From the NCBI RefSeq assembly GCF_017875645.1, contig NZ_JAGGMR010000001.1, forward strand, positions 2,294,001 to 2,358,000: 64,000 bases of DNA. The letters are read 5' to 3'. Made by a program: the position numbers and the translations under genes. Origin of the DNA: Nocardia goodfellowii (GTDB taxonomy: Bacteria; Actinomycetota; Actinomycetes; Mycobacteriales; Mycobacteriaceae). The notes under the pieces are model-generated. The model saw only the letters and a list, made by a program, of their open reading frames with translations. It had not been told where the DNA came from and ran no database searches. Of this stretch, positions 1 through 12,764 are shown piece by piece. Position 1 is the first letter of the stretch; each line of letters opens with the position of its first letter.

Positions 1-356
1 GACCAGCCGAGACCGATCAGCAGCACGCCGCCGAGAATGCCCGCGATGGTGGCGATCAGAAAACTGGACCGCACCACATCACGCACCGCGCGGTCGGCCG
101 TGTGGCCGTTCTTACCCGCGGCGCTGACCTCGGCGGCGATCCGGTTGCCCGTGCCGGTGATCAACCCGACGCACATGGTGCGAATCTGGTTGAACAGCAC
201 CAGCGCCAACCCGCCGGCCGCGACCTGACGCACCCCGAGCGTGCCCATCAACGCGATGTTCGTCGTCGATACGGCGATCTGGGCCAGCTGGGTGAGCGCG
301 ATCGGCGTGGCCAGCGCGGTGAGGCGCTTGGAGTCGGCGCGGTACTGCGACAGCAT
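1..356 (-). CDS. MATE family efflux transporter (partial, C-terminus off the window)
   Basis: Only the first ~118 codons are inside the window. The frame opens at ATG 356 (a GTG lies directly before it), 43 bases after the SbnA-like gene stops, behind a GGAGGGGG ribosome site. The translation has an alternating hydrophobic pattern with the N-terminal signature LATPIALTQLAQIAVSTTNI, then MGTLGV and an FNQIRTMCVG segment, typical of MatE/DinF-type drug or metabolite antiporters. As the last gene of the iron-box operon, its likely job is export of the finished metallophore; that role is inferred from position. The rest of the gene, and possibly more biosynthetic genes, lie to the left of the window. 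Confidence 0.75.
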   Translation of the reverse strand, partial: MLSQYRADSKRLTALATPIALTQLAQIAVSTTNIALMGTLGVRQVAAGGLALVLFNQIRTMCVGLITGTGNRIAAEVSAAGKNGHTADRAVRDVVRSSFLIATIAGILGGVLLIGLGW

Positions 357-399
357 CACCACGCCCCCTCCGCTCCGTACCCGCTGCTCCGACCGATCC

Positions 400-1434
400 T
401 CATCGGGCATTCACCAGTTGATCGGTGCGGTGGGCGGGTGCGTAACGGTCCAGCAGTTCCAGCACCTCGCGTTCGGCGGCGGTGTCGAGCAGATCGCGCT
501 CCTTCATCCAGTCGTCGTCGAAGACTGTGTCCAGGTATTTCTCGCCGCCATCGCAGACGATGGTGACCACGGTCGAGCCGGGCGGGAACTCCGCCAGGCG
601 GGTGAGCCCGGCGTGCACCGAACCGCCCGCGGAGCCGCCGATCATCAGGCCCAGCTTCGCTGCGACCGCCCGAGCGGTGGCGAAGGCGGCCACGTCCGAC
701 ACCTTGACGCCCTCGTCCAGCAGCGAATAGTCGACGGCGGTACCGATGGTCGCGCCCGGCGGCGTGCCGGTGCCCGACTGCCAGTACGGCCCGCCCGGTC
801 CACCGAACGCGATCGAGCCGACCGGTTCCACACCGATCACATGCGGGGTGCAGCCGAGCTGACGTAACCGGGTCGCGGTGCCGAACAGCGAACCGCCGGT
901 GCCCACCGCGGAGAGCAGGATGTCGACCCGCGGCACGTCTGCCAGCAATTCCTCGGCCACGGGGTAGTAGCCGACCGCGTTGGCGTCATTGTTGTGCTGT
1001 TCGGTGAAATAGGCGTCCGGCAGCCCGGCCGCCATCGCCTCGGCCAGGTCTTCCCGGGCCGAGGTGGCCAGGTTGTCATCACCCTCGTCGGCGACGAACA
1101 CCAGTTCCGCACCCATCGCTCGCATCGCTCGCAACTTGTCCTTACACGCGTGATGATCGACCACTGCGGTAAAGCGATACCCACGTTCGGCAGCAACTAC
1201 CGCAAGGCCGAGCCCGGTGTTCCCGGACGTCGACTCGATGATATGCCCGCCATCGGGCAGCAAACCGCGCCGCTCGGCATCGTCGACCATGGCGCGCGCC
1301 ATCCGGATCTTGGCCGCGCCCGTCGGATTGAACTGCTCCAGTTTCAGCAGCAGCCGGGTGCCGGTGTCGGTACGGGCCAGTTCGAACAGCGGGGTGCGGC
1401 CGATCAGATCCGTCACGCGCGTGACGAGCGGCAT
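400..1434 (-). CDS. SbnA-like PLP-dependent diaminopropionate-forming synthase (cysteine synthase fold)
   Basis: A fold-type II PLP enzyme of 344 residues. The PLP lysine is expected at K42 within GAAKIR, where cysteine synthases have GSxKDR. STSGNTG near residue 75 binds the substrate carboxylate, and GTGGS plus GGSAGG hold the cofactor phosphate. In the SbnA family O-phosphoserine condenses with glutamate (SbnA itself) or, in aminopolycarboxylate pathways, probably aspartate, to give an N-carboxyethyl amino acid later split by the SbnB partner. The ATG at 1434 sits behind GAGGAG and opens directly on the conserved LIGRTPL start, so a longer upstream frame is rejected. It follows the decarboxylase by 50 bases and precedes the exporter. 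It is distinct from the cystathionine beta-synthase at 49.9 kb, which has the usual GSSKDR motif and CBS domains. Confidence 0.85.
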   Translation of the reverse strand: MPLVTRVTDLIGRTPLFELARTDTGTRLLLKLEQFNPTGAAKIRMARAMVDDAERRGLLPDGGHIIESTSGNTGLGLAVVAAERGYRFTAVVDHHACKDKLRAMRAMGAELVFVADEGDDNLATSAREDLAEAMAAGLPDAYFTEQHNNDANAVGYYPVAEELLADVPRVDILLSAVGTGGSLFGTATRLRQLGCTPHVIGVEPVGSIAFGGPGGPYWQSGTGTPPGATIGTAVDYSLLDEGVKVSDVAAFATARAVAAKLGLMIGGSAGGSVHAGLTRLAEFPPGSTVVTIVCDGGEKYLDTVFDDDWMKERDLLDTAAEREVLELLDRYAPAHRTDQLVNAR

Positions 1435-1484
1435 GGGTGTCTCCTCATCAAGGGTCTGCGGGTGGTGCGGTGGAACCGGGGTAA

Positions 1485-4400
1485 CTAGGAGTCGAACGTC
1501 CAGCGGACGCGCTCGCCGGGCGCGTCGTGCAGCACGATCTTCGGTGGAATCGGCAGGTCGTGGAAAGCGGATTCGTTCGAATCCATTTGGTAACCGGCGG
1601 TATTCGGGTAAATGAGCAGGTCGCCCACCTCGGCGTGCCGGGGCAGCGGGATACGCCGCCAGCTGAGCATGTCGGATTCGAGGCAGGTGGCTGCGCCGAC
1701 GGCGGCCGGTGTCGGGGTGCCCGGCCGGTGTGGCCACAGCACCGGATCCGGCAGGAACTCGCTGTCGAACCACTGCTCGGACAGGCTGAGGCTGGTTCCG
1801 TCCACGGTCAGCACTTGGTACGGCCGGCCGTGCGCGAACCGGGTCTTGCCGCCCTGCACGCGGAACACGGTGCTGCCCGCATTGTCCAGCAGTGCCCGGC
1901 CCGGTTCGATGGCCAGCCGGATATCGTTGTCGCGCAACCGCTCTCCCAAACGACGCTGCTCCAGCACCGCCGACAGCATGGCGGGTCCCGGTGCCGGGAA
2001 ATGGTACGGATAGAACGAGTCGAAGTTCTTACCGGCGTGGAACCACTCGCTGTTCACGCCCGCCGTGAATTCGGTCCAGGCCTGCTCGGGTACGTAATCC
2101 ACGCCGAATCCACCACCGATCGAGATGGTGGTGACCGGGTGGCCGAGTTTCCGTGCCGCGAGGCAGTGATCGATGAGCTCCTCGGCCTGTCCGGCCCGGG
2201 CGGCAGCGTCATACCCCGAGAGGTGAAAACTGAAGCCCTCCAACTGAATCGGCTCCAGCCCGGCCGGCCCCGCCGCACCGATCACCGACATCGCCGCGCC
2301 GATCTCGCTATCGGACAGTCCGAACCGGCTCGCCGAACCAGCCGGCAGCACCCGCAGCAGCACCCGCGCCGGCGTCGCCGCCGAGGCGATCCGTTCCAAC
2401 CGCCGCAACTCGTCCAACGCGTCCAGCGCGATCAACGCCCCGTGCCGCACCGCCAGCCACAGCAGATCATCCGACTTGGCCGGCCCGGTCACCATGAGCT
2501 CATTGCCCCGCACACCCTGCGCCAGCGCGGCAGTCAACTCCCCGACACTGGAAACATCGACGCCGGTGCCGTTTTCGGCACAGGCCCGCGCGACACAACC
2601 GGCCTTGTTCGCCTTCTTGCCGTAGTAGATCGCGCCGTCGACACCCGCGTCCACGAAGACATCACGGAAACCCTGGATATTGCGCGCGACCCGCTGCGGA
2701 TACATCAGATGAAACGGACCACCTACCGCAAAGGCGATGTCCTCCAGCAGGTGCTGGTCATCTAGGACCCGCTGCTCCCACTCGTCACGATGAGCGGGCA
2801 GGGGGAGAGCGACGGTGTCCACCGAAATAGTTTCCGAGGCAGTCGCTTCCGAATCGATCGACGCGGACGGTTCCGTATCCGTAGCCTCGTCGGAACAGGC
2901 GACCTCGGAGGAGGCATCGGCGAAAGGAACCGCGGGCGCTTCGGTCTTGTCCAGATCCGGGCGGGGTTTCCGATCCCACCTGGCGCGCTGCGCCGGGGGT
3001 TCGGCTGAGGCGCGCATCGATGAAACAGGCTGTGCGGCAGCCGCTTCTCGGCGCAGGGGGTCGACCGCAGGTTCCGGAACTGATTTCTGTGGGGCGACAT
3101 CTTTGACTGCGCCGGTGCGGCGGATGTCGTCCAGGAAGGGACCGGCCAGGGGTGAGTCGCCCTGGGTGCTGGTGTCGACGGAGGTCTTCGTGTCGGCCGT
3201 GGCCTGGGTGTCGGTGTCGAGGGGGCTCTTGCTGTCGGCCGTGACGTGAGTGTTGGTGACGATTGAGTTTTTCTGCGCACCCGTGACCTGGGTTTCGGCA
3301 TCGACCGGTGCGTCGTCCCCGCCCTTAGTCTCGCTCGCGAGGTTGGTGTCGGTGTCGACGGGAGCGGCGTCTTCGGTGTTGTCCGGGGTTTTGGTGTCGA
3401 GAGCGGTCCCGGGGTGGCTCGCGAACTGGGTCTCGGCGTTGACGGGCGACTCGCTCGGGCCTCCGACCTGTGCCTCGGCGTCCGCGGGTGTCCTGTCCCC
3501 GGCCTGGGCCTCTACTTCGCCCTCGCCCTCGGAGTGGTCGGCGTCGATCGGGTCCTCTTCGACCGAATTGCGAACAGCTGCCGCGATATCGTCCGGCATG
3601 GTCGAGTGCTGCACTGCCGGGTCAGCGTCAACGTCACTCGGAATCAGTGTTTGCGAAACCGATTCGCCAGCCGTCCCATCCATTTCGAGTTCGGCCGGTG
3701 TGATGTCATCGATGCACGGCTCACCCTCGTTCTCGATGTCTGTATCAGTTGCGAGATCATGCGTGACTTCGCCGCTGCGGAACTCGTTCAGCGGATCATC
3801 GGCAGACCCGCCGAACACCGCGGCGGTAGGCGCGTTGGTCGTCGTGCCGAGTGATTCGGTGGTGGTTGTGTCGGTCCCGACCACAGTTGTGCCGGTTGCT
3901 GATTCGGTGGGAGTCGCCTCGTTCTGGACTCCGGTCGAGTCGAGGGTCGCCGACTCGACAGTTTCCGAGGTGCCGGAGCCGAGCTCGATCGACTCGGAAG
4001 CGGTCACCTCCTCCGATCGTGCATCGATGACTGCGAGTTCGTCGGAGAACATTTCAGGAAAGTCAGCTTCAGCTGCGAGTTCGGGCGTGGTTCCGCCCGT
4101 TGAGAATTCATCCAGCGGATCGTCGGCGGGAGCGTCGACCAACTCGGTCGATTCGGCAGCGGCCACCGCGCTCGGACGCGCATCGAGTTCGCCGTAGATC
4201 TCTTCGGGGAAGCCCGCATCAGCAATGAGATCGACTTCGCTCGAGCGGAATTCGTTCAGCGGATCGTCGGCTGGGGCCACATCGACCAACTCGGCTTCGC
4301 TATCGTCCCCTGGTGTGTGGGTTGCGGCTTCGGTGTCGTCCGCTGTGGTGCTTGCCAGTTCCGCGATAGTCGCCTCGACCTCGCACGCTGCCGGGTTACC

Positions 4401-4898
4401 GGCCGCCAACGCTTCCGCTGTGCCGGAACCGGACTCGATCGATTCAAGGGCCGTCGCCGCGCAGCGCTGCGTATCGGTAACCGTCAGTTCGTCGGCGACT
4501 GTCTCGGGGGTGCCCGCTTCAGTTGTGGTTGACGGCGTGCGCTTTCGGGACTTCGACTTCTTACGCCCGGGGCGAGCGCCGCCGGGGCCGGGGTGGGCAT
4601 CGACGGGCTTGCTGTCGGCCGTGGTCGGTTCGGTGGCGACGCGGGGGTCGGGTTCGGGGTTGGGGACGTGGGGGTCTGGGGGGTCGGGGATGCGGGGGTT
4701 CTGGTCCGGGGGGCTCGGATCGCGTGGATCGGGGTCCGGGGATCGGGGGTCGGGGTCCGCGGGGCCGTCGGGGGCCGGGCCGGGGATCCGCGGGTCGTGG
4801 TCGGCCTTCGCGGGGGCGTCGGATTCCACGTCGAACAGCGCCAGATTGTCGGTATCGAACAGGCCTATGGTCAGTTCGGCGGTGGAGTCTAATCCCAC
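1485..4898 (-). CDS. Type III PLP-dependent decarboxylase (Y4yA/SbnH-like) with giant disordered N-terminal extension
   Basis: The protein has 1137 residues. Residues ~695-1137 are an alanine-racemase/ornithine-decarboxylase-type domain. YYGKKANK places the Schiff-base lysine at about K762, IEPGRALLDN is the PLP-phosphate/substrate region, and SIGGGFGVDY is the glycine loop. Such enzymes decarboxylate carboxylated diamine intermediates, as SbnH does in staphyloferrin B synthesis. Residues 1-690 are low-complexity: Pro/Asp-rich repeats (to ~90), a basic RKKSKSRKR patch (~110), then acidic Thr/Ser/Asp/Glu sequence with three ADDPL[N/D]EF motifs at 210, 258 and 366 and many PVDAETQ-like units (~440-600). 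Family members are normally near 450 residues. The GTG start overlaps the SbnB-like stop by 10 bases and has GGAGG at the right spacing; codon 3 is the rare TTA. The frame is open throughout, so I treat the extension as real, though an internal start for a short form cannot be excluded. Confidence 0.8.
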   Translation of the reverse strand: MGLDSTAELTIGLFDTDNLALFDVESDAPAKADHDPRIPGPAPDGPADPDPRSPDPDPRDPSPPDQNPRIPDPPDPHVPNPEPDPRVATEPTTADSKPVDAHPGPGGARPGRKKSKSRKRTPSTTTEAGTPETVADELTVTDTQRCAATALESIESGSGTAEALAAGNPAACEVEATIAELASTTADDTEAATHTPGDDSEAELVDVAPADDPLNEFRSSEVDLIADAGFPEEIYGELDARPSAVAAAESTELVDAPADDPLDEFSTGGTTPELAAEADFPEMFSDELAVIDARSEEVTASESIELGSGTSETVESATLDSTGVQNEATPTESATGTTVVGTDTTTTESLGTTTNAPTAAVFGGSADDPLNEFRSGEVTHDLATDTDIENEGEPCIDDITPAELEMDGTAGESVSQTLIPSDVDADPAVQHSTMPDDIAAAVRNSVEEDPIDADHSEGEGEVEAQAGDRTPADAEAQVGGPSESPVNAETQFASHPGTALDTKTPDNTEDAAPVDTDTNLASETKGGDDAPVDAETQVTGAQKNSIVTNTHVTADSKSPLDTDTQATADTKTSVDTSTQGDSPLAGPFLDDIRRTGAVKDVAPQKSVPEPAVDPLRREAAAAQPVSSMRASAEPPAQRARWDRKPRPDLDKTEAPAVPFADASSEVACSDEATDTEPSASIDSEATASETISVDTVALPLPAHRDEWEQRVLDDQHLLEDIAFAVGGPFHLMYPQRVARNIQGFRDVFVDAGVDGAIYYGKKANKAGCVARACAENGTGVDVSSVGELTAALAQGVRGNELMVTGPAKSDDLLWLAVRHGALIALDALDELRRLERIASAATPARVLLRVLPAGSASRFGLSDSEIGAAMSVIGAAGPAGLEPIQLEGFSFHLSGYDAAARAGQAEELIDHCLAARKLGHPVTTISIGGGFGVDYVPEQAWTEFTAGVNSEWFHAGKNFDSFYPYHFPAPGPAMLSAVLEQRRLGERLRDNDIRLAIEPGRALLDNAGSTVFRVQGGKTRFAHGRPYQVLTVDGTSLSLSEQWFDSEFLPDPVLWPHRPGTPTPAAVGAATCLESDMLSWRRIPLPRHAEVGDLLIYPNTAGYQMDSNESAFHDLPIPPKIVLHDAPGERVRWTFDS

Positions 4899-5899
4899 AG
4901 GGGCACCTCCGTGCCGCGTCCTTCGGCGATCGCACGCTCGGCGAGGGCGTGCGCGACAGCGATATCGGTGAGCACGAGTCCAGAGTTGTAGACGAAGATC
5001 TTCTCTTCGTCGCTGCGGCGCGCCACGGCGCGGCGGGACAATATTTGCGGCAGTTCCGCGTCCACCGTCCGCAGCCGCCCGTCCGGCCCGGCCATGTCGG
5101 TGCCGGTCAGCTGCATTTGCTCGGCGCTGGTGGCGACGACGCGGTCGGCCTCGATCAGGGTGGACGGGGCCAGCCCGTACCCGACGAGGACCACGGTGGA
5201 ACCCGGCGCCACGTCAGCGGCTTCGAGCGCGACCTCGGTGCCGGGGCCCGCGGTCGCGAGCACCACGTCGGCGTGCGCGGCGGCCGCGCGCGCGTCGGTC
5301 ACGGTTTCCAGCAGGGCGTGCGGATGGTGTTCGGCCAGTTGGCGGTGCACCGCGTCGATGCCCTCCGGATGTGTGCCGTACAGCATCAACTTGCGCAGCC
5401 CGGGGTTCGCGGCGAGCAGATGCGGCAGGGCGTTGCGGCCCTGGGTGCCGGTGCCGATGAGCAGCACGCTCTCCGCGCCGCGGCGCATGGTCTCGCGCAC
5501 CAGCAGCGCCGACACGGCCGGGGTGCGCAGCGCGCCGACGCGGGCGCAGTCCATCATCGCGATCGGCGCACCGGTGGTGTCGTCGTAAAGGGTGATGGTG
5601 GTGTAGTAGCGCTTGGTGCTGCGGTCGTGGCCGGGGTCGAACTTGTAGGAGGTCTTCATCGCCACGACGCGGCGGCGGCCGTCCCGGCCGAGCATCGCGT
5701 AGGCCACCGACCAGCCGTCCGGATTCGCCACGCTGAGTTTGCGTGGATTGTCCGAAAGTCCCTCGGCAAAGGCCAGATACGCGTCCTCCACCGCGCGCAC
5801 GACATCGGCGGGCGTGATCGGTACGTCGGCCAGATCGGTTCGGCTCAGTACGCGCAATGGCGTCGCTCGATCACGAGTGTTCAACGGATCCTCGATCAT
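4889..5899 (-). CDS. SbnB-like ornithine cyclodeaminase/mu-crystallin family dehydrogenase
   Basis: A 336-residue NAD-dependent enzyme. The Rossmann motif is LLIGTGTQGRN. MKTSYKFDPGHDRSTKRYYTT and the DCARVGALRTPAVSALLVR strand carry the residues that bind the carboxylate in ornithine cyclodeaminases. SbnB oxidatively cleaves the SbnA product to release 2,3-diaminopropionate and a keto acid, so an adjacent SbnA/SbnB pair is diagnostic of diaminopropionate chemistry. I place the start at ATG 5899 (MIEDPLNTRD), 29 bases inside the oxygenase gene. A longer frame to 5998 would add an arginine-rich, non-conserved stretch. It is followed by the decarboxylase with a 10-base overlap, so translation is probably coupled across three genes. 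Confidence 0.85.
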   Translation of the reverse strand: MIEDPLNTRDRATPLRVLSRTDLADVPITPADVVRAVEDAYLAFAEGLSDNPRKLSVANPDGWSVAYAMLGRDGRRRVVAMKTSYKFDPGHDRSTKRYYTTITLYDDTTGAPIAMMDCARVGALRTPAVSALLVRETMRRGAESVLLIGTGTQGRNALPHLLAANPGLRKLMLYGTHPEGIDAVHRQLAEHHPHALLETVTDARAAAAHADVVLATAGPGTEVALEAADVAPGSTVVLVGYGLAPSTLIEADRVVATSAEQMQLTGTDMAGPDGRLRTVDAELPQILSRRAVARRSDEEKIFVYNSGLVLTDIAVAHALAERAIAEGRGTEVPLWD

Positions 5900-7004
5900 C
5901 TCGGTCCCAACCTGCTCCCGCCACCGCATCCGCTCGCGCCGACTCCGCCGGCCGCGCACCACCAGCGAACGGGGCGACAATTCGCTGGCCGTACCCATTC
6001 TCGTCGGCTTCCGCGGCCCGGCGCCGCCGTTCGGGCAGGCGGATGTTGACGCGCTTGAGCCACCGGTCGGTGCCGTCGTACCGCGCGGTGAAGGGCACCC
6101 GGCCGTGCACGGCGACGTCGTTGTCCACCAGCAGCAACTCGCCGGGGTGCAGTGCGGCGGTGACGCAGACCCGTTCCAGTTCGGCCGTCAGATGCGCGTA
6201 GGCCGCGCGGAACTCCGGCCCGGCGTCATCGAGCGGAGTGTAAGCGGGGTCGTAGCGAAGGGTGAGATCCGCTGTGCCGTCCAGGGTTTCGGACCAAATG
6301 GTGGGCAGGGGCGGCGCGGTGTGCCGCTCGTGTCCGGTGCCGTAGGAGACGTCCGGCAGGATCGGCAGCGTGGGCGTCCGGAGCAGCCGGTGCTCGTCCG
6401 CGCTGAGTACGACCCGCCGCACCGAGGACACCGTGGTGCCGACCAGATCGGGGTTGCGCAGGCAGCCCAGCATCAGCAGGTTCGCGCGCTGCGGATGGAA
6501 CGCGTCCTCGGTGTGCGGGGACAGCAGCGCCTTGCTGCTCGCGCCGGACTGCTCGTCTTCGTGCCCCGGCGTGGGCAGGATGTTGTTCACCAGCCGCCCG
6601 TCCTGCTGGCCCTGCCAACCGAAAGGCTCACCGGCGCAACGCGCCAGCAGCAACATGACGATGTCCAGTTCGCTCCAGCGCACCGCCTCGCGCCAGCTGT
6701 GCGGCGTCGGCCCGAGTTCGTCGTCGGACAGCGGCAGACTGCTGACGATGGTGGCGCCCGCGCTAGTGGCGGGTGCGCGCATGGCTTCGCGCACGGTGCC
6801 GGGCAATTCGGTGGACCAGCGATCGATATGTCCGGCGAGCGCCGGGTTGGTCAGCGCCCGGCCGACTCCGCCGGGCTGCGCGGCCAATGTGGTGCAGATC
6901 TCACGGGCGAGCGCACGCACCGCCTGGCCGTCCGCCGACGGGAGCTCGCGTCGTTCGATGTCCTGTGGGTGAAGCGTTTTACGTTCGGAGAGAACGCTTT
7001 TCAC
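5871..7004 (-). CDS. Fe(II)/2-oxoglutarate oxygenase of the clavaminate synthase / arginine-asparagine hydroxylase type
   Basis: A TauD/TfdA-superfamily protein of 377 residues. HTEDAFHPQRA at ~164 supplies the first two iron ligands as HxE, the variant used by VioC, AsnO and other free-amino-acid beta-hydroxylases rather than the usual HxD. DNDVAVHGRVPFTARYDG near 320 carries the distal histidine, and DRWLKRV the arginine for 2-oxoglutarate. The likely reaction is beta-hydroxylation of arginine or a related amino acid for the metallophore; the exact substrate is inferred. GTG 7004 is preferred because AAGGGA sits just upstream; ATG 7025 is the alternative. It is first in the operon and lies behind the iron box at 7082-7100. 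The 3' end overlaps the SbnB-like gene by 29 bases. Confidence 0.8.
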   Translation of the reverse strand: MKSVLSERKTLHPQDIERRELPSADGQAVRALAREICTTLAAQPGGVGRALTNPALAGHIDRWSTELPGTVREAMRAPATSAGATIVSSLPLSDDELGPTPHSWREAVRWSELDIVMLLLARCAGEPFGWQGQQDGRLVNNILPTPGHEDEQSGASSKALLSPHTEDAFHPQRANLLMLGCLRNPDLVGTTVSSVRRVVLSADEHRLLRTPTLPILPDVSYGTGHERHTAPPLPTIWSETLDGTADLTLRYDPAYTPLDDAGPEFRAAYAHLTAELERVCVTAALHPGELLLVDNDVAVHGRVPFTARYDGTDRWLKRVNIRLPERRRRAAEADENGYGQRIVAPFAGGARPAESARADAVAGAGWDRDDRGSVEHS

Positions 7005-7081
7005 CGGGAGGTCCCTTCTTCGCATTAGTCGAAAAGCGGGTTAAGACGTGTCGCACTGCGAAGCTAGTACCTCGCGCCGCC

Positions 7082-7100
7082 TTAAGCAAGGCTTACCTAA
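7082..7100 (-). promoter_or_regulatory. Iron box (IdeR/DmdR-type operator) upstream of the metallophore operon
   Basis: TTAAGCAAGGCTTACCTAA matches the 19-base actinobacterial iron-box consensus TTAGGTTAGGCTAACCTAA at 15 of 19 positions and keeps its dyad. It lies 78-96 bases before the first gene. In mycolata IdeR with ferrous iron represses siderophore genes at such sites. A Zur site (TGAAAATnATTTTCA type) was looked for and not seen. Confidence 0.7.
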
Positions 7101-7263: not shown

Positions 7264-10152
7264 CTAACCGAGTAGCTCGCGGGTTGCGCTGTGTGCCGGT
7301 TCGGCGAGAATCGATGCGGCGAAGCCGGATTCGACGATCCGGCCCTGATCCAGCACGATGACACCGGCGCAGTGCCCCGCCACCAGTCTCATGTCGTGGG
7401 TGATCACCAGCAGGGCGGTGCCGCGCGCGGCGCGGATGCGATCCAGCAGGCGCATGATCGACGACGCGGTCGCGTGATCGAGCGCGGAGGTGATCTCGTC
7501 GCAGACGAGCACGGCGGGTTCGGCCGCCAAGGCGCGCGCCAGCGCGACCCGCTGGCGCTGCCCGCCGGATAGTTGATGCGGATAGCGGCGCGCCAATTCC
7601 GGTGCGAGGTCGACGGATTCGAGTAGATCGGTGATCCGTTGCGGCACAGCGCTTTTCGATACGCCACCGATGCGGCGCAGCGGGCGCGCCAGGGTTTGGG
7701 CGACGGTTCGGCGCGGATTCAGCGCGGACAGCGGATTCTGGGTCACCAGCTGGATTCCGTTCCCCGCGTAACGGATTCGGCGGCCGCGGCCGAGGCGCAC
7801 GGGCCTACCGCCGAGCTCCAGCGATCCGGTCGCGGTGCGATGCAGCCCCGCGATCACCCGCGCCAGGGTGGTCTTCCCGGCCCCGGACGCGCCTACCACC
7901 GCCAGCGCCGAGCCCGCGCCCAGTTCGAAGTCGACCGCCGACAGGACGGGTCGCCCACAGATCTCCGCGGTGATGTTGCTAGCGCGTAGCACGGCTTTTT
8001 GTCGGTCCGCACCATTACGATCTGCCGCATGAAAGCCATTGGGACCTTCTCCGTCGCCGCCTTCGTCCCGACCGACGTCGTGCCCGACCCACCGATCAGC
8101 ACCGCGCTTCCGGTCGGCATCGCCACGATGGAGAAGCAGTTCGCCGGCGAACTCACCGGCCGCTCGGCGACTTTGTTCACCTCCGCCTTCGATATGTCCA
8201 CCGGTGCGGGCACCTACCTCGCGATGGAATCCTTCGAGGGCACCCTCGACGGCCGCACCGGCAGCTTCAACTTCGTCCACTCGGCGACCACCGGCGGCAC
8301 CGATCGCACGAACGAGTTCTTCCTCATCGTCCCCAACAGCGGCACCGGTGAGCTCACCGGCATCACCGGCACCGGCGGGTTGAGCGTCGATGCCGAAGGC
8401 GGGCACCACATCTGGTTCGACTACGAACTTCCCGGCGCGTAGCTCCTCCGGTAGCGGCGTGCCGAGCTCGAGGATGCTGTCGGCGACGGCGTGAATGGTG
8501 GCGGTGTCGTGCCCGGACAGCAGCACCGCGATGCCGCGTTCGGTCGCGACGCGCCGCAACAACTCGGCGATTTCGGTGCGCAGGGTGCCGTGCAGTCCGG
8601 CGAGCGGTTCATCGAGGACGAGGATTTCGGTGCGCCGCACCAGCGCACGGGCCAGGGCGACGCGGCGCTGCTGCCCGCCCGAGAGTTCTGCCGGATACCG
8701 GCGCAGATGTTCGGCGGAAAGCCCGACCAGCGCCAATGTTTCGAGCAGCGCGGTGTCGGCGGGATCGTCCGCGACCTCGGCCAGCAACTTGCGGACCCGC
8801 ATGAGGGGATTGAGCGACGAACCGGGATCCTGGCCGACATAGGCGATGTGACGGTGGCGGAATCGTTGCAGCGCAGCAGGATCCAGCGCGAACACATCCT
8901 GATCGGCTACCGTCACCGACCCGGTCGAGCGAGCCGCACCCGCCGGTAGGTGGCCGAGCAGAGCGCGCATCAGCGTGGTCTTGCCCGATCCCGAGGGACC
9001 GGTCAGCGCGGTGACTGTGCCCGGCCTGATGCGAAAGCTGATGGGCCCGAACAGCTCCTGGCCGTTATGACCGCGCACAGCCAACGCCTCGACGACCACA
9101 ACCGCGTCATCCGGCGGGAACTCCGTCGTGTCGTTCGACTGCGGCTGTCCCGTTCCGGCGCTTCGGCGTTCCGGACAGGCGGGGGAGCGCGCATCGCCGT
9201 CTACGGTCGTTTCGGGATAACCGATGGAACCCGCTTCGGTACCGGCATCGACCTGTTCCGCCGAACCCGCTGGATCAAGGGGATGCGCCGAGCCGAATCG
9301 TGATGTCAGCGCCGCGGCATCGGCCGAGTCCACACTCGGCCCGGATCGACCTTCCGCGCGGCCGAATCCGTCGACCGCGAGGTTCACGCTGACGGCGACG
9401 ATCGCGATCGCGAGGCTTGGTGCGAGCACGGACCACGGGTTGAGTAGCAGCCCGGAGGTGTTCTCGCGCACCATGACCGCCCAGTTCGCGGCGCCCAGAC
9501 TGGTCGGCAACTGCAGGAACGACGCGGTGCTGACCATGTAGACGCCGACGACGAAACGCAGGCCGAGCTGGGAGGCGAGTACCTGGCGCAGGTTCGGGAC
9601 GACTTCGCGAAAAACCAGGTGCGGCAGCCGTTCACCGCCGGCCTCGGCGCTTTCGACGTAGCCGCTGGCCGCGATTCCCGCTGCCGCTGCCGCGAAGACC
9701 CGGGCGCAGTAGGGCGCCCCGAACAGCAGCGCGACCACGACCAGTCCGTAGGTGCCCGCGTCCGGCCAGGAGGTCAGCACGAGCAGGATGCCGAGCACGG
9801 CGGGCATCAGCATCGCGAAATCGGTCGCGCTCTCGATGAGAACGCCGACCCGCGGGCGCAGCGCCGCGACCGTACCCAGTACACACGCCACCGCGGTCAC
9901 GAGAATGGCGATCGCCGCGGCCACGATCAGCAGACCCCAACCGCCATAAAGTAATTGGCTGAACACGTCGCGGCCCAGGCGATCGGTTCCCAGCCAGGCA
10001 TCGGCACTCGGCCGGCCGAACGGAATGCCGATCGCTTGCTCCGCCGGGCGCGGCGCCAGCGACGGCCCCAGCGCGGCGGCCACGATGACGAGCAGCGCGG
10101 GCAGGATGGTCAGGAGCGGGGCGAGGCGCGCCCGCCAGTGCGACAGTCTCAT
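7264..10152 (-). CDS. Fused Opp/Dpp-type ABC importer: permease (DppC-like) - ATPase - ATPase
   Basis: One open frame of 962 residues. Residues ~1-270 are a six-helix DppC-like permease with the GTDRLGRDVF periplasmic signature. A Ser/Pro/Asp-rich linker follows to ~355. ATPase 1 has Walker A GPSGSGKTT (~384), LSGGQQRR (~487) and LVLDEP (~510). Residues ~570-720 are the antisense of a DUF3224 gene and look like no ABC domain. ATPase 2 has GASGAGKTT (~752), LSGGQRQR (~858) and VLVCDEITSALD. A GTG at 7992 could start ATPase 2 as a separate protein of 242 residues, in which case ATPase 1 has no nearby stop of its own. The start overlaps the upstream permease stop as ATGA. The family imports peptides, nickel or opine-type metallophores; here the context argues for metallophore uptake. 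Confidence 0.75.
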   Translation of the reverse strand: MRLSHWRARLAPLLTILPALLVIVAAALGPSLAPRPAEQAIGIPFGRPSADAWLGTDRLGRDVFSQLLYGGWGLLIVAAAIAILVTAVACVLGTVAALRPRVGVLIESATDFAMLMPAVLGILLVLTSWPDAGTYGLVVVALLFGAPYCARVFAAAAAGIAASGYVESAEAGGERLPHLVFREVVPNLRQVLASQLGLRFVVGVYMVSTASFLQLPTSLGAANWAVMVRENTSGLLLNPWSVLAPSLAIAIVAVSVNLAVDGFGRAEGRSGPSVDSADAAALTSRFGSAHPLDPAGSAEQVDAGTEAGSIGYPETTVDGDARSPACPERRSAGTGQPQSNDTTEFPPDDAVVVVEALAVRGHNGQELFGPISFRIRPGTVTALTGPSGSGKTTLMRALLGHLPAGAARSTGSVTVADQDVFALDPAALQRFRHRHIAYVGQDPGSSLNPLMRVRKLLAEVADDPADTALLETLALVGLSAEHLRRYPAELSGGQQRRVALARALVRRTEILVLDEPLAGLHGTLRTEIAELLRRVATERGIAVLLSGHDTATIHAVADSILELGTPLPEELRAGKFVVEPDVVPAFGIDAQPAGAGDAGELTGAAVGDDEEELVRAIGAAGGRRVDEVEAAGAAVEGALEGFHREVGARTGGHIEGGGEQSRRAAGEFAGELLLHRGDADRKRGADRWVGHDVGRDEGGDGEGPNGFHAADRNGADRQKAVLRASNITAEICGRPVLSAVDFELGAGSALAVVGASGAGKTTLARVIAGLHRTATGSLELGGRPVRLGRGRRIRYAGNGIQLVTQNPLSALNPRRTVAQTLARPLRRIGGVSKSAVPQRITDLLESVDLAPELARRYPHQLSGGQRQRVALARALAAEPAVLVCDEITSALDHATASSIMRLLDRIRAARGTALLVITHDMRLVAGHCAGVIVLDQGRIVESGFAASILAEPAHSATRELLG
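7982..8443. repeat. 9-bp direct repeats bracketing the nested DUF3224 gene
   Basis: GCGCGTAGC occurs at 7982-7990 and again at 8435-8443. The two copies are 453 bases apart, exactly 151 codons, and both are read on the minus strand as the codons for LRA in the same frame. Collapsing the interval would join ATPase 1 (ending PEELRA) directly to ATPase 2 (SNITAEI). The repeats may be the trace of the event that placed DUF3224 here; a chance match is possible at this length. Confidence 0.6.
8029..8442 (+). CDS. DUF3224 domain protein nested antisense inside the ABC fusion gene
   Basis: A small protein of 137 residues with the DUF3224 hallmarks: GTFSVAAFVP at the start, ATMEKQFAGELTGRS, YLAMESFEGTLDGRTGSF and a closing IWFDYEL. 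The family folds as an allene-oxide-cyclase-like barrel of unknown function and is common as single genes in actinobacteria. It is complete, from ATG 8029 to TAG 8442, with no clear ribosome site before it. It reads opposite to the surrounding ABC gene, whose frame stays open straight through it. The full-length, well-conserved pattern argues that DUF3224 is the true gene in this interval. Confidence 0.8.
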   Translation: MKAIGTFSVAAFVPTDVVPDPPISTALPVGIATMEKQFAGELTGRSATLFTSAFDMSTGAGTYLAMESFEGTLDGRTGSFNFVHSATTGGTDRTNEFFLIVPNSGTGELTGITGTGGLSVDAEGGHHIWFDYELPGA

Positions 10153-11183
10153 CCGCGCCCCCGCAGCGACCAGGCGCGGATGCCGTCGGCGACCGCGAGC
10201 ATCACCATGATGGCCACACCGGACAGGGCGACGACGGCGGCGACGACCGAGGTATCCCGGTCGGCGACCGAACCGGCCAGCACGGCACCGAGTCCCGGAT
10301 AATTGAAGATGGTCTCGACCACCAGCGAGCCGCCGAGCACCATGCCGACGGTGGTGGCGAAGCTGGCCACGATGGTGGGCGCCGCGAACGGAAGAACGTG
10401 GCGAACCAGCAGCACCCGAGTCGAAAGGCCGTCCAGGACAGCGCTGTCGACGTGTGGCGCCTGCGCCGCGTCGGCGAGTGCGGCGCGCACCACCCGCGTG
10501 TTCCAGCCGATCTGCGGGATGGCCAGCGCGAGTACCGGCAGCACCAGCATGTCCGCGCTGACCGGGAACCCGGAGCGGTCGGTGATGGTGACGGCGGGCA
10601 GCCAGCCGGTGGCCAACGCGAACACCATGATCAGTAGCGTCGCGAGGACGAATTCCGGCACCGCCGCCGCAACCGTGGTCGCTGGCTGCAGGATTCGGGT
10701 CAGCGCGGTCCGCGATCGGGCGGCCCAACCGGCCGAGTTGTTCCGCTCCGGAGCGCCGGTCCTGGCACTGCCGCCCACAGTGACGCGCTCGGGTCTCGAG
10801 CCCGCTCCCAGTGGCGGTGTGGCGGCGGCCCACCATGCCCCGACGAGCAGTGAAACCACCACCGTCACCACGAGCGCGAGCCCACCGAGCAGCAGCGTCG
10901 GCGGAAACTTGTCCGCGAGCAGCTCATTGATGGAGCGGCCCCGCGCCGTGCGACCGAAGTCGCCGGTCAGCACGCCCGTCATCCAGTCGAAGAATCGCAC
11001 GACCAGCGGCCGGTCCAGGCCGAGTTCGTGTTCCTTGGCCGCGACCTGCTGCGCCGACGCCTCGCGGCCGAGGACCGCGCGGCCGGTTCCACCCGGCAGC
11101 AGATCCACGGCCACGAAAACCGTTGCCAGCAGCGCGATCAGCAGGCCGACGCGCCGGAACACCAGTCGTGCGAAGGACTTCAC
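10149..11183 (-). CDS. Opp/Dpp-type ABC transporter permease (DppB-like)
   Basis: A 344-residue inner-membrane permease with the GsiC/DppB architecture: an N-terminal helix (LVFRRVGLLIALLATVFVAV), the extracellular ELGLDRPLVVRFFDWM segment, then five helices with the HVLPFAAPTIVASF cytoplasmic coupling loop. A Gly/Ser/Arg-rich insert of about 40 residues sits between helices 2 and 3 and is not usual for the family. The GTG start overlaps the binding-protein stop as GTGA, and its own stop overlaps the next gene as ATGA. All three transporter proteins should therefore be made together. Confidence 0.85.
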   Translation of the reverse strand: MKSFARLVFRRVGLLIALLATVFVAVDLLPGGTGRAVLGREASAQQVAAKEHELGLDRPLVVRFFDWMTGVLTGDFGRTARGRSINELLADKFPPTLLLGGLALVVTVVVSLLVGAWWAAATPPLGAGSRPERVTVGGSARTGAPERNNSAGWAARSRTALTRILQPATTVAAAVPEFVLATLLIMVFALATGWLPAVTITDRSGFPVSADMLVLPVLALAIPQIGWNTRVVRAALADAAQAPHVDSAVLDGLSTRVLLVRHVLPFAAPTIVASFATTVGMVLGGSLVVETIFNYPGLGAVLAGSVADRDTSVVAAVVALSGVAIMVMLAVADGIRAWSLRGRG

Positions 11184-12691
11184 TCCAGCCAGGCCCGTTC
11201 CAGCTGCACGCGGGCGAAGCCGCCGAGCGTGGGCAGGTCACGCACCTTGGCGGAGGCGATGTCGATGCCGTCGGCCATGCCCCACACCAGATAGCCGCCG
11301 CGGTCGTGCTGGATCCGCTGCAGCGTCTTGCAGGCCGCCACGTATTCCGCGTCATCACGCGCCGCGAGGGCTTTCGCGGTGGCCGCGTCGAATTCCGGGT
11401 CCTTGAAGGCGGTTTCGTTGCGGTTGGACCGGCTCGACAGCAGTTTGTCGGCGTAGAACAGGGTGGAGTCGTTGGTGCCCCAGGACACCGTGTAGAACGG
11501 CGCGTTCAACCAGGTCTGGTCGTAGAAGGCGTTGGACTCCTGCGTGACGATCTCGAGCTTGATCCCGATCTCGGTGAGCTGGGTGGCGAGCACCCGGGCG
11601 GACTCCACCTCGCCGGGCGCTTCGGCTTTGGTGACCAGCGGATAGGTCTTGCCGGTATCGAAGTTCGCCTCGCGCAGCAGGGTTTTCGCCCGTTCCACCT
11701 CGCGGACCCGCTGCGGGATCGAGGTGTCGTAGTTCGGGTCGGCGGTGCCGAGAATGTCGTTAGCGACGGTGCCGTATCCCGAATGCACCTGGTCCACCAG
11801 GGCTTTCCGGTCGACGCCGAGCCGGATCGCGGTGCGCACCCGGGCATCGGCGAACGGTCCGTCCGAGGTCCGCATCGCCACACCCAGCATGGTGTCGTTC
11901 GAGCGCCGCACGACCTGCAGATCGCCCCGCCCCTCGGCGGTCCGGCCGGCGATCGCGCCCACGTTGGAAGCCAGATCGATCTGTCCGCCGAGCACCGCGT
12001 TGCCCAGCGCCGTGGCGCTTTCGAACATGGTCACCTCGATGGCGTCCAGCAGCGGCGCGGGCCCGTGCCAGCGCTCGTTGCGCACCAGCCGCGCGTTGCC
12101 GCCCTGGTAGGACTCCAGCCGGAACGGTCCGGTACCGACAGCCTTGGTGAAATCGGTGGTGCCCGCCTTCACGGTGAAGGTCATCAACCGGACCAGCAGC
12201 GGCAGTTGGGAATTGGGTTCCGGCACGGTCAGGACGATCCGGTTGGGCCCGTCCGCGTTGATGTCTTCGGCGGCGACCGGCATCTTCGACGCCCCGCCGA
12301 CCGTGCGCAGCCTGCGCAGCGACCACACCACATCCTCGGAGGTGACCGGCGTCCCGTCGTGGAAGGTCGCGCCCTCGGCGAGGGTGAAGGTCCACCGCTT
12401 GCGTTCGGCGTCGGACTCCCACTTGCTCGCCAGCCGCGGCGCCACGTTCGGGTCCGCGCCGGGCACGGTCAACGCGTCGTAAACCAGTGCGGTGATGAGG
12501 AAGTCGCTGTCGTTGCTGAGATTGGCGTGCGGGTCGCGTTCGATCCGCGCCGCGGTGCCCACCGCGCCGACCCGGAGCGTCCCGCCGCGCGCCGGCCCGC
12601 TGGACTTCTCGCCGTCCGAGCACGCGGCCAGCAGCAGTAGCGCTCCGACTCCTACGCCGCCTCGTAGCAGCTGTCGCCGATTCCAATCCAT
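11180..12691 (-). CDS. Extracellular solute-binding lipoprotein, family 5 (DppA/NikA/CntA type)
   Basis: A 503-residue precursor. The signal peptide starts MDWNRRQLLRG (a twin-arginine-like pair) and ends in the lipobox LAAC, so it is anchored by a lipidated cysteine outside the membrane. The mature part shows the SBP_bac_5 pattern, with ATFHDGTPVTSEDVVWSLRR and AIRLGVDRKALVDQ. This family captures peptides, nickel or opine metallophores for ABC import. ATG 12691 follows GAGGAAGG. An iron-box-like palindrome lies ~55 bases upstream. Given the adjacent biosynthetic operon I infer binding of a ferric aminopolycarboxylate. Confidence 0.85.
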   Translation of the reverse strand: MDWNRRQLLRGGVGVGALLLLAACSDGEKSSGPARGGTLRVGAVGTAARIERDPHANLSNDSDFLITALVYDALTVPGADPNVAPRLASKWESDAERKRWTFTLAEGATFHDGTPVTSEDVVWSLRRLRTVGGASKMPVAAEDINADGPNRIVLTVPEPNSQLPLLVRLMTFTVKAGTTDFTKAVGTGPFRLESYQGGNARLVRNERWHGPAPLLDAIEVTMFESATALGNAVLGGQIDLASNVGAIAGRTAEGRGDLQVVRRSNDTMLGVAMRTSDGPFADARVRTAIRLGVDRKALVDQVHSGYGTVANDILGTADPNYDTSIPQRVREVERAKTLLREANFDTGKTYPLVTKAEAPGEVESARVLATQLTEIGIKLEIVTQESNAFYDQTWLNAPFYTVSWGTNDSTLFYADKLLSSRSNRNETAFKDPEFDAATAKALAARDDAEYVAACKTLQRIQHDRGGYLVWGMADGIDIASAKVRDLPTLGGFARVQLERAWLE

Positions 12692-12745
12692 GCCGGTGCC
12701 TTCCTCGATAACCGCGTGCCCCGCCGGAACACGCCGACGGCCAGG

Positions 12746-12764
12746 CCAGGCTAGCCTAATTCGC
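12746..12764 (-). promoter_or_regulatory. Probable iron box upstream of the ABC importer
   Basis: On the minus strand GCGAATTAGGCTAGCCTGG contains the perfect dyad AGGCTAGCCT and the core TTAGGCTAGCCT. It matches about 11 of 19 consensus positions, weaker than the site at 7082-7100 but centred on the same core. Its position before the binding-protein gene suggests joint iron control with the biosynthetic operon. Confidence 0.5.

Follow-up and report, generated by a model that had tools for sequence, protein, structure and literature searches.

A putative EDHA-type siderophore locus in Nocardia with an extended decarboxylase

Introduction

The 64-kb stretch of Nocardia goodfellowii DNA analysed here, hereafter called the window, corresponds to positions 2294001-2358000 of a 7.95-Mb contig. 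At its left edge, a group of genes encodes an oxygenase, an SbnB-like enzyme, a decarboxylase, an SbnA-like enzyme and a MATE-family exporter, which raises the question of what these proteins make and for which metal. We consider it highly likely that the locus makes, exports and re-imports an aminopolycarboxylate siderophore of the ethylenediaminesuccinic acid hydroxyarginine (EDHA) type under iron repression. This proposal starts from what the sequence establishes: the genes, their order, the cluster shared with Streptomyces scabiei and the iron-box motifs. An EDHA-like product had already been suggested in a first-pass annotation of the window, and it is supported by the S. scabiei gene set and order, the hydroxylase and the iron-box motifs; the chemistry is a prediction.

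Organization of the locus

The biosynthetic and export operon occupies positions 1-7100 on the minus strand, in the order hydroxylase, SbnB-like enzyme, decarboxylase, SbnA-like enzyme and MATE exporter. Its frames overlap throughout, save for a spacing of about 50 nucleotides (nt) between the decarboxylase and SbnA-like genes. The first-pass annotation had listed these five genes behind an iron box; Pfam matches were found for all five, and the box is present. However, the locus is bigger than had been noted. The MATE gene runs past the left window edge and completes at genome position 2292956, and an importer operon at 7264-12691 also belongs to the locus. The decarboxylase has 1137 amino acids, of which about 690 form an N-terminal extension that went unmentioned. 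The parts are as follows (percentages are identities to the S. scabiei counterparts; PLP, pyridoxal phosphate).

1-410, minus strand: MATE-family exporter, N-terminal part (MatE E 1.1e-27 for the full protein; 51%)
400 to about 1434, minus strand: SbnA-like PLP beta-replacement enzyme (PALP 5e-59; SbnA model 7.8e-67, below cut-off; 68%)
1485-2828, minus strand: PLP fold-III decarboxylase core (Orn_Arg_deC_N 7.6e-24; 54%)
2829-4898, minus strand: N-terminal extension of the decarboxylase, about 690 residues, in frame, acidic, predicted from composition to be disordered
4889-5998, minus strand, likely start ATG at 5899: SbnB-like dehydrogenase (OCD_Mu_crystall 1.5e-23; SbnB model 3.2e-29, below cut-off; 60%)
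5871-7025, minus strand, likely start GTG at 7004: Fe(II)/2-oxoglutarate arginine-hydroxylase-like oxygenase, HxE type (53%)
7082-7100: iron-box motif of the biosynthetic operon, TTAAGCAAGGCTTACCTAA, 15/19
7264-10152, minus strand: importer permease C, ATPase 1 and ATPase 2 in a single open frame (BPD_transp_1 and two ABC_tran domains; 51-54%, compared part by part)
7999-8442, plus strand: DUF3224 gene, antisense within the ATPase 1-ATPase 2 linker (PF11528 9.2e-35)
10149-11183, minus strand: importer permease B (BPD_transp_1 5.3e-25; 49%)
11180-12691, minus strand: importer solute-binding protein, family 5, Opp/Dpp/Nik type (SBP_bac_5 2.7e-69; 56%)
12741-12759: iron-box motif of the importer operon, CCAGGCCAGGCTAGCCTAA, 14/19

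Comparison with the S. scabiei EDHA cluster

A genome scan with an alignment of the hydroxylase returned 205 relatives, and 80 loci were kept, among them one from S. scabiei 87.22. This locus (NC_013929, 589747-600784) spans 11.0 kb from ATPase to MATE and has nine genes by count. The passages of PMC8914351 on this strain, citing Spohn 2018, describe an 11-kb EDHA cluster from scab_5231 to scab_5311 and hold no EDHA metabolite data of their own; EDHA is entry BGC0002567 in MIBiG, according to a passage of PMC11888242. Because strain, size and gene count agree, we infer that the locus found here is the published cluster.

We made the comparison with the EDHA cluster that the first-pass annotation had advised. 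All ten protein parts compared, covering biosynthesis, export and import, are shared with S. scabiei, the biosynthetic order is identical, and both loci have two iron-box motifs in the control region. The two loci differ in three ways. The importer lies upstream and is divergent in S. scabiei, and it is co-oriented in the window; permease C and the ATPases share a single frame here and do not there; and the S. scabiei decarboxylase lacks the extension. More widely, seven of nine non-Nocardia loci around a hydroxylase match had the full five-gene order, and the other two had the hydroxylase match only. The family-5 binding protein and ABC importer that adjoin the window operon also adjoin the cluster in all seven non-Nocardia loci with the full Streptomyces-type gene order and, within Nocardia, at seven of the ten other 20-kb loci. 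On the sequence features tested, the window operon thus fits the EDHA kind of cluster.

Iron-box motifs

Putative iron boxes were scored as motifs against a 19-position consensus. Within the 64 kb, on either strand, only two sites matched at least 14 of 19 positions: 7082, before the hydroxylase gene, and 12741, before the binding-protein gene. From 148 Nocardia genomes, 111 loci were surveyed, one of them without SbnB. Of the remaining 110, 109 have a site of at least 13/19 before the hydroxylase gene, compared with 1 of 330 shuffled stretches. Two boxes of at least 13/19 lay in the shared control region of six Nocardia loci with a divergent importer, of S. scabiei and of one Streptomyces-type locus, these eight loci having been picked because their importer is divergent. 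The window operons have one box each; in the sister genome, the importer box lies outside the fetched stretch. These motifs point to iron-box control of both operons through putative sites.

The hydroxylase and the identity of the product

The hydroxylase matched TauD (E 2.6e-13), and its top NCBIfam model was GntD, an enduracididine hydroxylase (9.9e-71), ahead of VioC (5e-60). Its nearest solved structure is 4m23, an L-arginine beta-hydroxylase, followed in order by 6daw (a non-heme iron hydroxylase), a variant of the 4m23 enzyme, CmnC, an asparagine oxygenase and VioC entries. The sequence PHTEDAFH, which contains HxE, and the distal VHGR were invariant across nine of nine aligned hydroxylases, and an R-x-D-P stretch was likewise unchanged between the Nocardia and Streptomyces-type proteins.

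These data bear on an alternative in which the product is a relative of EDHA rather than EDHA, built by the same logic by an oxygenase that acts on another amino acid or position. The lead of GntD over VioC, the asparagine oxygenase among the solved relatives and the 53% identity to the S. scabiei hydroxylase are consistent with such a product, as are the separate, well-supported branches of the Nocardia and Streptomyces-type decarboxylases. However, the nearest solved structure and the invariance of all three motifs argue for arginine as the substrate. We regard a relative of EDHA as unlikely, while still giving it some weight.

Several observations weigh against an EDHA-type siderophore at this locus. 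Identities of 51-68% to the S. scabiei enzymes leave room for another arm or another hydroxylation site. None of the operon proteins reached a curated NCBIfam cut-off among the matches listed, which for the SbnA-like protein were 25 of 32; SbnA and SbnB are the best models of the SbnA-like and SbnB-like proteins, and both failed the equivalog test (225.5 vs 349.95 and 102 vs 326.9 bits). By that test, the operon proteins are therefore homologues and not equivalogs. Four other places in the genome lie within three mismatches of the iron-box consensus, and the window boxes have four and five, so they are not the best in the genome. No importer was found beside the cluster in 3 of the 10 other 20-kb Nocardia loci (L077, L078 and L086; L078 had weak ATPase matches). 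Finally, the operon of genome G053 (locus L212) lacks nearly all of sbnB, and the 17.8 kb fetched around it showed no importer, although hydroxylase and decarboxylase genes occur together a second time in this genome, at 5169436-5172685.

A probable zinc-type paralogue in the same genome

The [S,S]-ethylenediaminedisuccinic acid (EDDS) genes of Amycolatopsis japonicum encode enzyme and exporter families related to those of the window operon, and the EDDS cluster is not known to have a hydroxylase gene. A second locus of this composition is present in the genome at 6892363-6897191, where genes for an SbnB-like enzyme, a decarboxylase, an SbnA-like enzyme and a MATE exporter lie together without a hydroxylase. 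Its proteins are 47-57% identical to four of the five window proteins. It is preceded by TGACAATGATTGTCA, the sole exact match in the genome to a Zur-type pattern. With up to one mismatch allowed, the genome scan gave only the sites 6897259 and 2179420, and none before the window operon. The open reading frames near 2179420 are, we presume by eye, those of ribosomal proteins L33 and S14 and a COG0523-type GTPase, genes that are typical Zur targets.

We found the zinc-type paralogue in 25 of the 148 Nocardia genomes (E 1e-160 or better). No iron-box match of at least 12/19 on the coding strand preceded any of the 25, and a Zur-like box of at least 10/12 preceded 11 of them, compared with 3 of 500 mononucleotide shuffles. 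Midpoint-rooted trees were built from a selection of 12 Nocardia iron-type, 13 Streptomyces-type and 9 zinc-type rows, 34 for the decarboxylase and 29 of those 34 for SbnA (five stretches had no SbnA match). In both trees, the Nocardia iron-box and Streptomyces-type loci were separated from the Zur-box-type paralogues with branch support of 100/100. By identities as well as by these trees, the window enzymes group more closely with those of S. scabiei than with the zinc-type paralogues.

Passages of PMC6103462 and PMC9252823 describe the A. japonicum EDDS genes as Zur-regulated. The window operon differs from those descriptions by its hydroxylase and its iron-box motifs. That the window operon itself makes an EDDS-type zinc chelator is thus very improbable: the resemblance of four of its proteins to the paralogue favours it, whereas the iron-box motifs, the missing Zur-type site, the hydroxylase and the trees speak against it, and the paralogue fills the role better. 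The EDDS alternative raised in the first-pass annotation therefore falls for the window operon and stands for the paralogue, which is probably EDDS-like. Such a hydroxylase-free paralogue with a Zur-type box would give one cell an iron and zinc pair of related chemistry. On the strand of the EDDS-like paralogue, a gene for a band-7/SPFH protein (L006, 13311-14732) precedes both the paralogue and its Zur-type box.

There is next to no probability that the SbnA/SbnB pair supplies free diaminopropionate to a non-ribosomal peptide synthetase (NRPS) or NRPS-independent siderophore (NIS) pathway: SbnA and SbnB are the best models, but their scores are below cut-off, the decarboxylase and exporter are conserved alongside the pair, and, in line with the first-pass annotation, no NRPS or NIS domain was found in the eight open reading frames within 9 kb beyond the MATE gene, on the left of the cluster (the search covered these frames only). 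The staphyloferrin B enzymes SbnA and SbnB are homologous to the window pair; the window locus differs in having no NIS gene on the side checked and a decarboxylase between the SbnB-like and SbnA-like genes.

A model for the pathway

We propose a model of EDHA-type synthesis in which the oxygenase would hydroxylate arginine. The SbnA-like enzyme would couple an amino acid to a C3 unit derived from serine, the decarboxylase would turn this C3 unit into an ethylenediamine bridge, and the SbnB-like enzyme would add the other arm reductively from a 2-oxo acid; no sequence of reactions is implied. In the window lineage, the decarboxylase would carry a long acidic N-terminal tail that is probably disordered. 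The MATE protein would export the product, and the family-5 binding protein and ABC transporter would re-import the iron complex. An IdeR/DmdR-type repressor would turn both operons off under plentiful iron.

The N-terminal extension of the decarboxylase

The decarboxylase core is nearest to diaminopimelate and lysine/ornithine decarboxylases, and several relatives are annotated as Y4yA family PLP-dependent enzymes. KKANK, GGGF, EPGR and a C...D pair (C1072, D1076) were invariant in 19 of 19 sequences. The decarboxylase frame overlaps the end of sbnB, its start lying 10 nt short of the last base of the stop codon, and is open for about 690 codons up to the core. We found no Pfam match before residue 740 at E 0.001, so the extension is not a known domain by that search. 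Its net charge is -110. Of 19 extensions, 17 could be delimited by the pattern and measured, and every one of these has a negative net charge. In a charge-hydropathy plot, the extension falls on the disordered side and the core on the folded side; judged from composition, it is probably disordered. Such a tail is not a habit of all genes: in a set of 43 window genes chosen with a simple rule on codon bias, the longest acidic, disorder-like run, of 360 residues, belongs to the decarboxylase. The next longest has 217, and other genes show shorter runs.

The core was searched against 7999 database candidates whose lengths were 0.55-1.75 times that of the window protein. This search yielded 23 proteins: six from Nocardia of 918-1282 amino acids, including that of the window, thirteen of 627-801 and four with two domains. 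The last four (P0020, P0021, P0022 and P0023) are decarboxylases fused to PF00656, PALP (SbnA type) or MatE. Searched with the extension only, the 7999 scored candidates gave the window protein and its sister and nothing else. Literature listings on Y4yA and on siderosome and disordered proteins contained no entry on this extension.

The window extension contains three DDPLNEF-type motifs, LFDTDNLALFD, RKKSKSRKR and AEPPAQRARW. DDPLNEF-type motifs occur in all six long proteins, and LFDTD..ALF and AEPP..RARW in five each (the sixth has the latter with a one-residue insertion); a basic patch separate from AEPP..RARW is present in five. Three of the patterns had no match in 12000 shuffles and the basic cluster matched in 3.8%, although the patterns were drawn up after viewing the six sequences and this result overstates their significance.

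Is the extension functional? We surveyed 110 Nocardia loci from the 148 genomes; the others either had not been fetched or had no SbnB. Between sbnB and the core lies a gap of 8-2405 nt. It is in frame in 80 loci, and in 79 it can also be read without interruption from a start codon at the position seen in the window; an in-frame extension of at least 65 residues is present in 25. It is close to an even chance that the extension is functionless, either untranslated, with an internal start at the core, or translated and growing neutrally like spacers elsewhere in the clade. The extensions of the window and its sister are only 42% identical, and their third-position bias is weak (343 vs 275 and 237 changes). 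The frame is not conserved in 30 loci and the in-frame open start is missing in 31, and the importer linkers of this clade are likewise variable in length, reaching 909 nt. Against this, 79 loci retain the in-frame, open start at the same 10-nt distance from the end of sbnB over gaps of 8-2405 nt, and the six long proteins have conserved islands as well as the uniformly negative charge.

A rather improbable proposal is that the extension is a disordered acidic scaffold. Its motifs (LFDTDDLALFD, RKKRKPRKR, repeated DDPLNEF and AEPPAQRARW) would dock EDHA enzymes or the exporter and gather an NRPS-free pathway into a membrane-linked complex or condensate, similar in purpose to the pyoverdine siderosome. 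If so, lengthening within one Nocardia lineage would provide a natural length series for the action of the tail. A disordered tail is in any case odd on a small metabolic enzyme, and relatives with extensions of about six to about 840 residues form a ready series.

Distribution in Nocardia

The hydroxylase was found in 147 of the 148 sampled Nocardia genomes and the decarboxylase in all 148 (E 1e-60 or better). In G013, the only genome without a hydroxylase match, the decarboxylase lies 543 bases from the start of its contig. In a sample of the class, 31 of 394 genomes had a hydroxylase match (E 1e-30), Nocardia included, and many of the others were more distant relatives. According to a passage of PMC11888242, the EDHA family includes 328 Nocardia windows. 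Thus the family in Nocardia is in print, and the present work adds its near-universality in the sampled genomes and the decarboxylase tail. If the product is of the EDHA type, the system would come near to being a core siderophore of Nocardia, which includes human pathogens.

Passages of PMC10920908 report an aminopolycarboxylate cluster (7.2) in N. mangyaensis NH1 that resembles the window locus in its Nocardia host, iron-regulator site and MATE transporter gene; those passages name no EDHA, hydroxylase, importer or extension.

Some genomes carry unusual copies. The only hydroxylase match of G113 has 50% identity, a value typical of Streptomyces-type proteins, and G056 has two extra copies of 52%, likewise in that range, which suggests transfer or replacement.

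Importer arrangement and the DUF3224 gene

All five importer parts are common to S. scabiei (49-56% identity), and the start of the binding protein looks lipoprotein-like by eye. The importer is co-oriented with the biosynthetic operon in the window and in the sister genome, G115, as if it had been inverted. At 10 importer loci (eight Nocardia and two Streptomyces-type), ATPase 1 and ATPase 2 always share one open frame, with linkers of 51 to 909 nt; permease C and ATPase 1 do so at six, including the window, L076 and L079-L082.

The antisense DUF3224 gene was not found in six other Nocardia loci with the importer and is present in the sister locus, L079. We do not think it part of the pathway. 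The importer frame is open straight through it.

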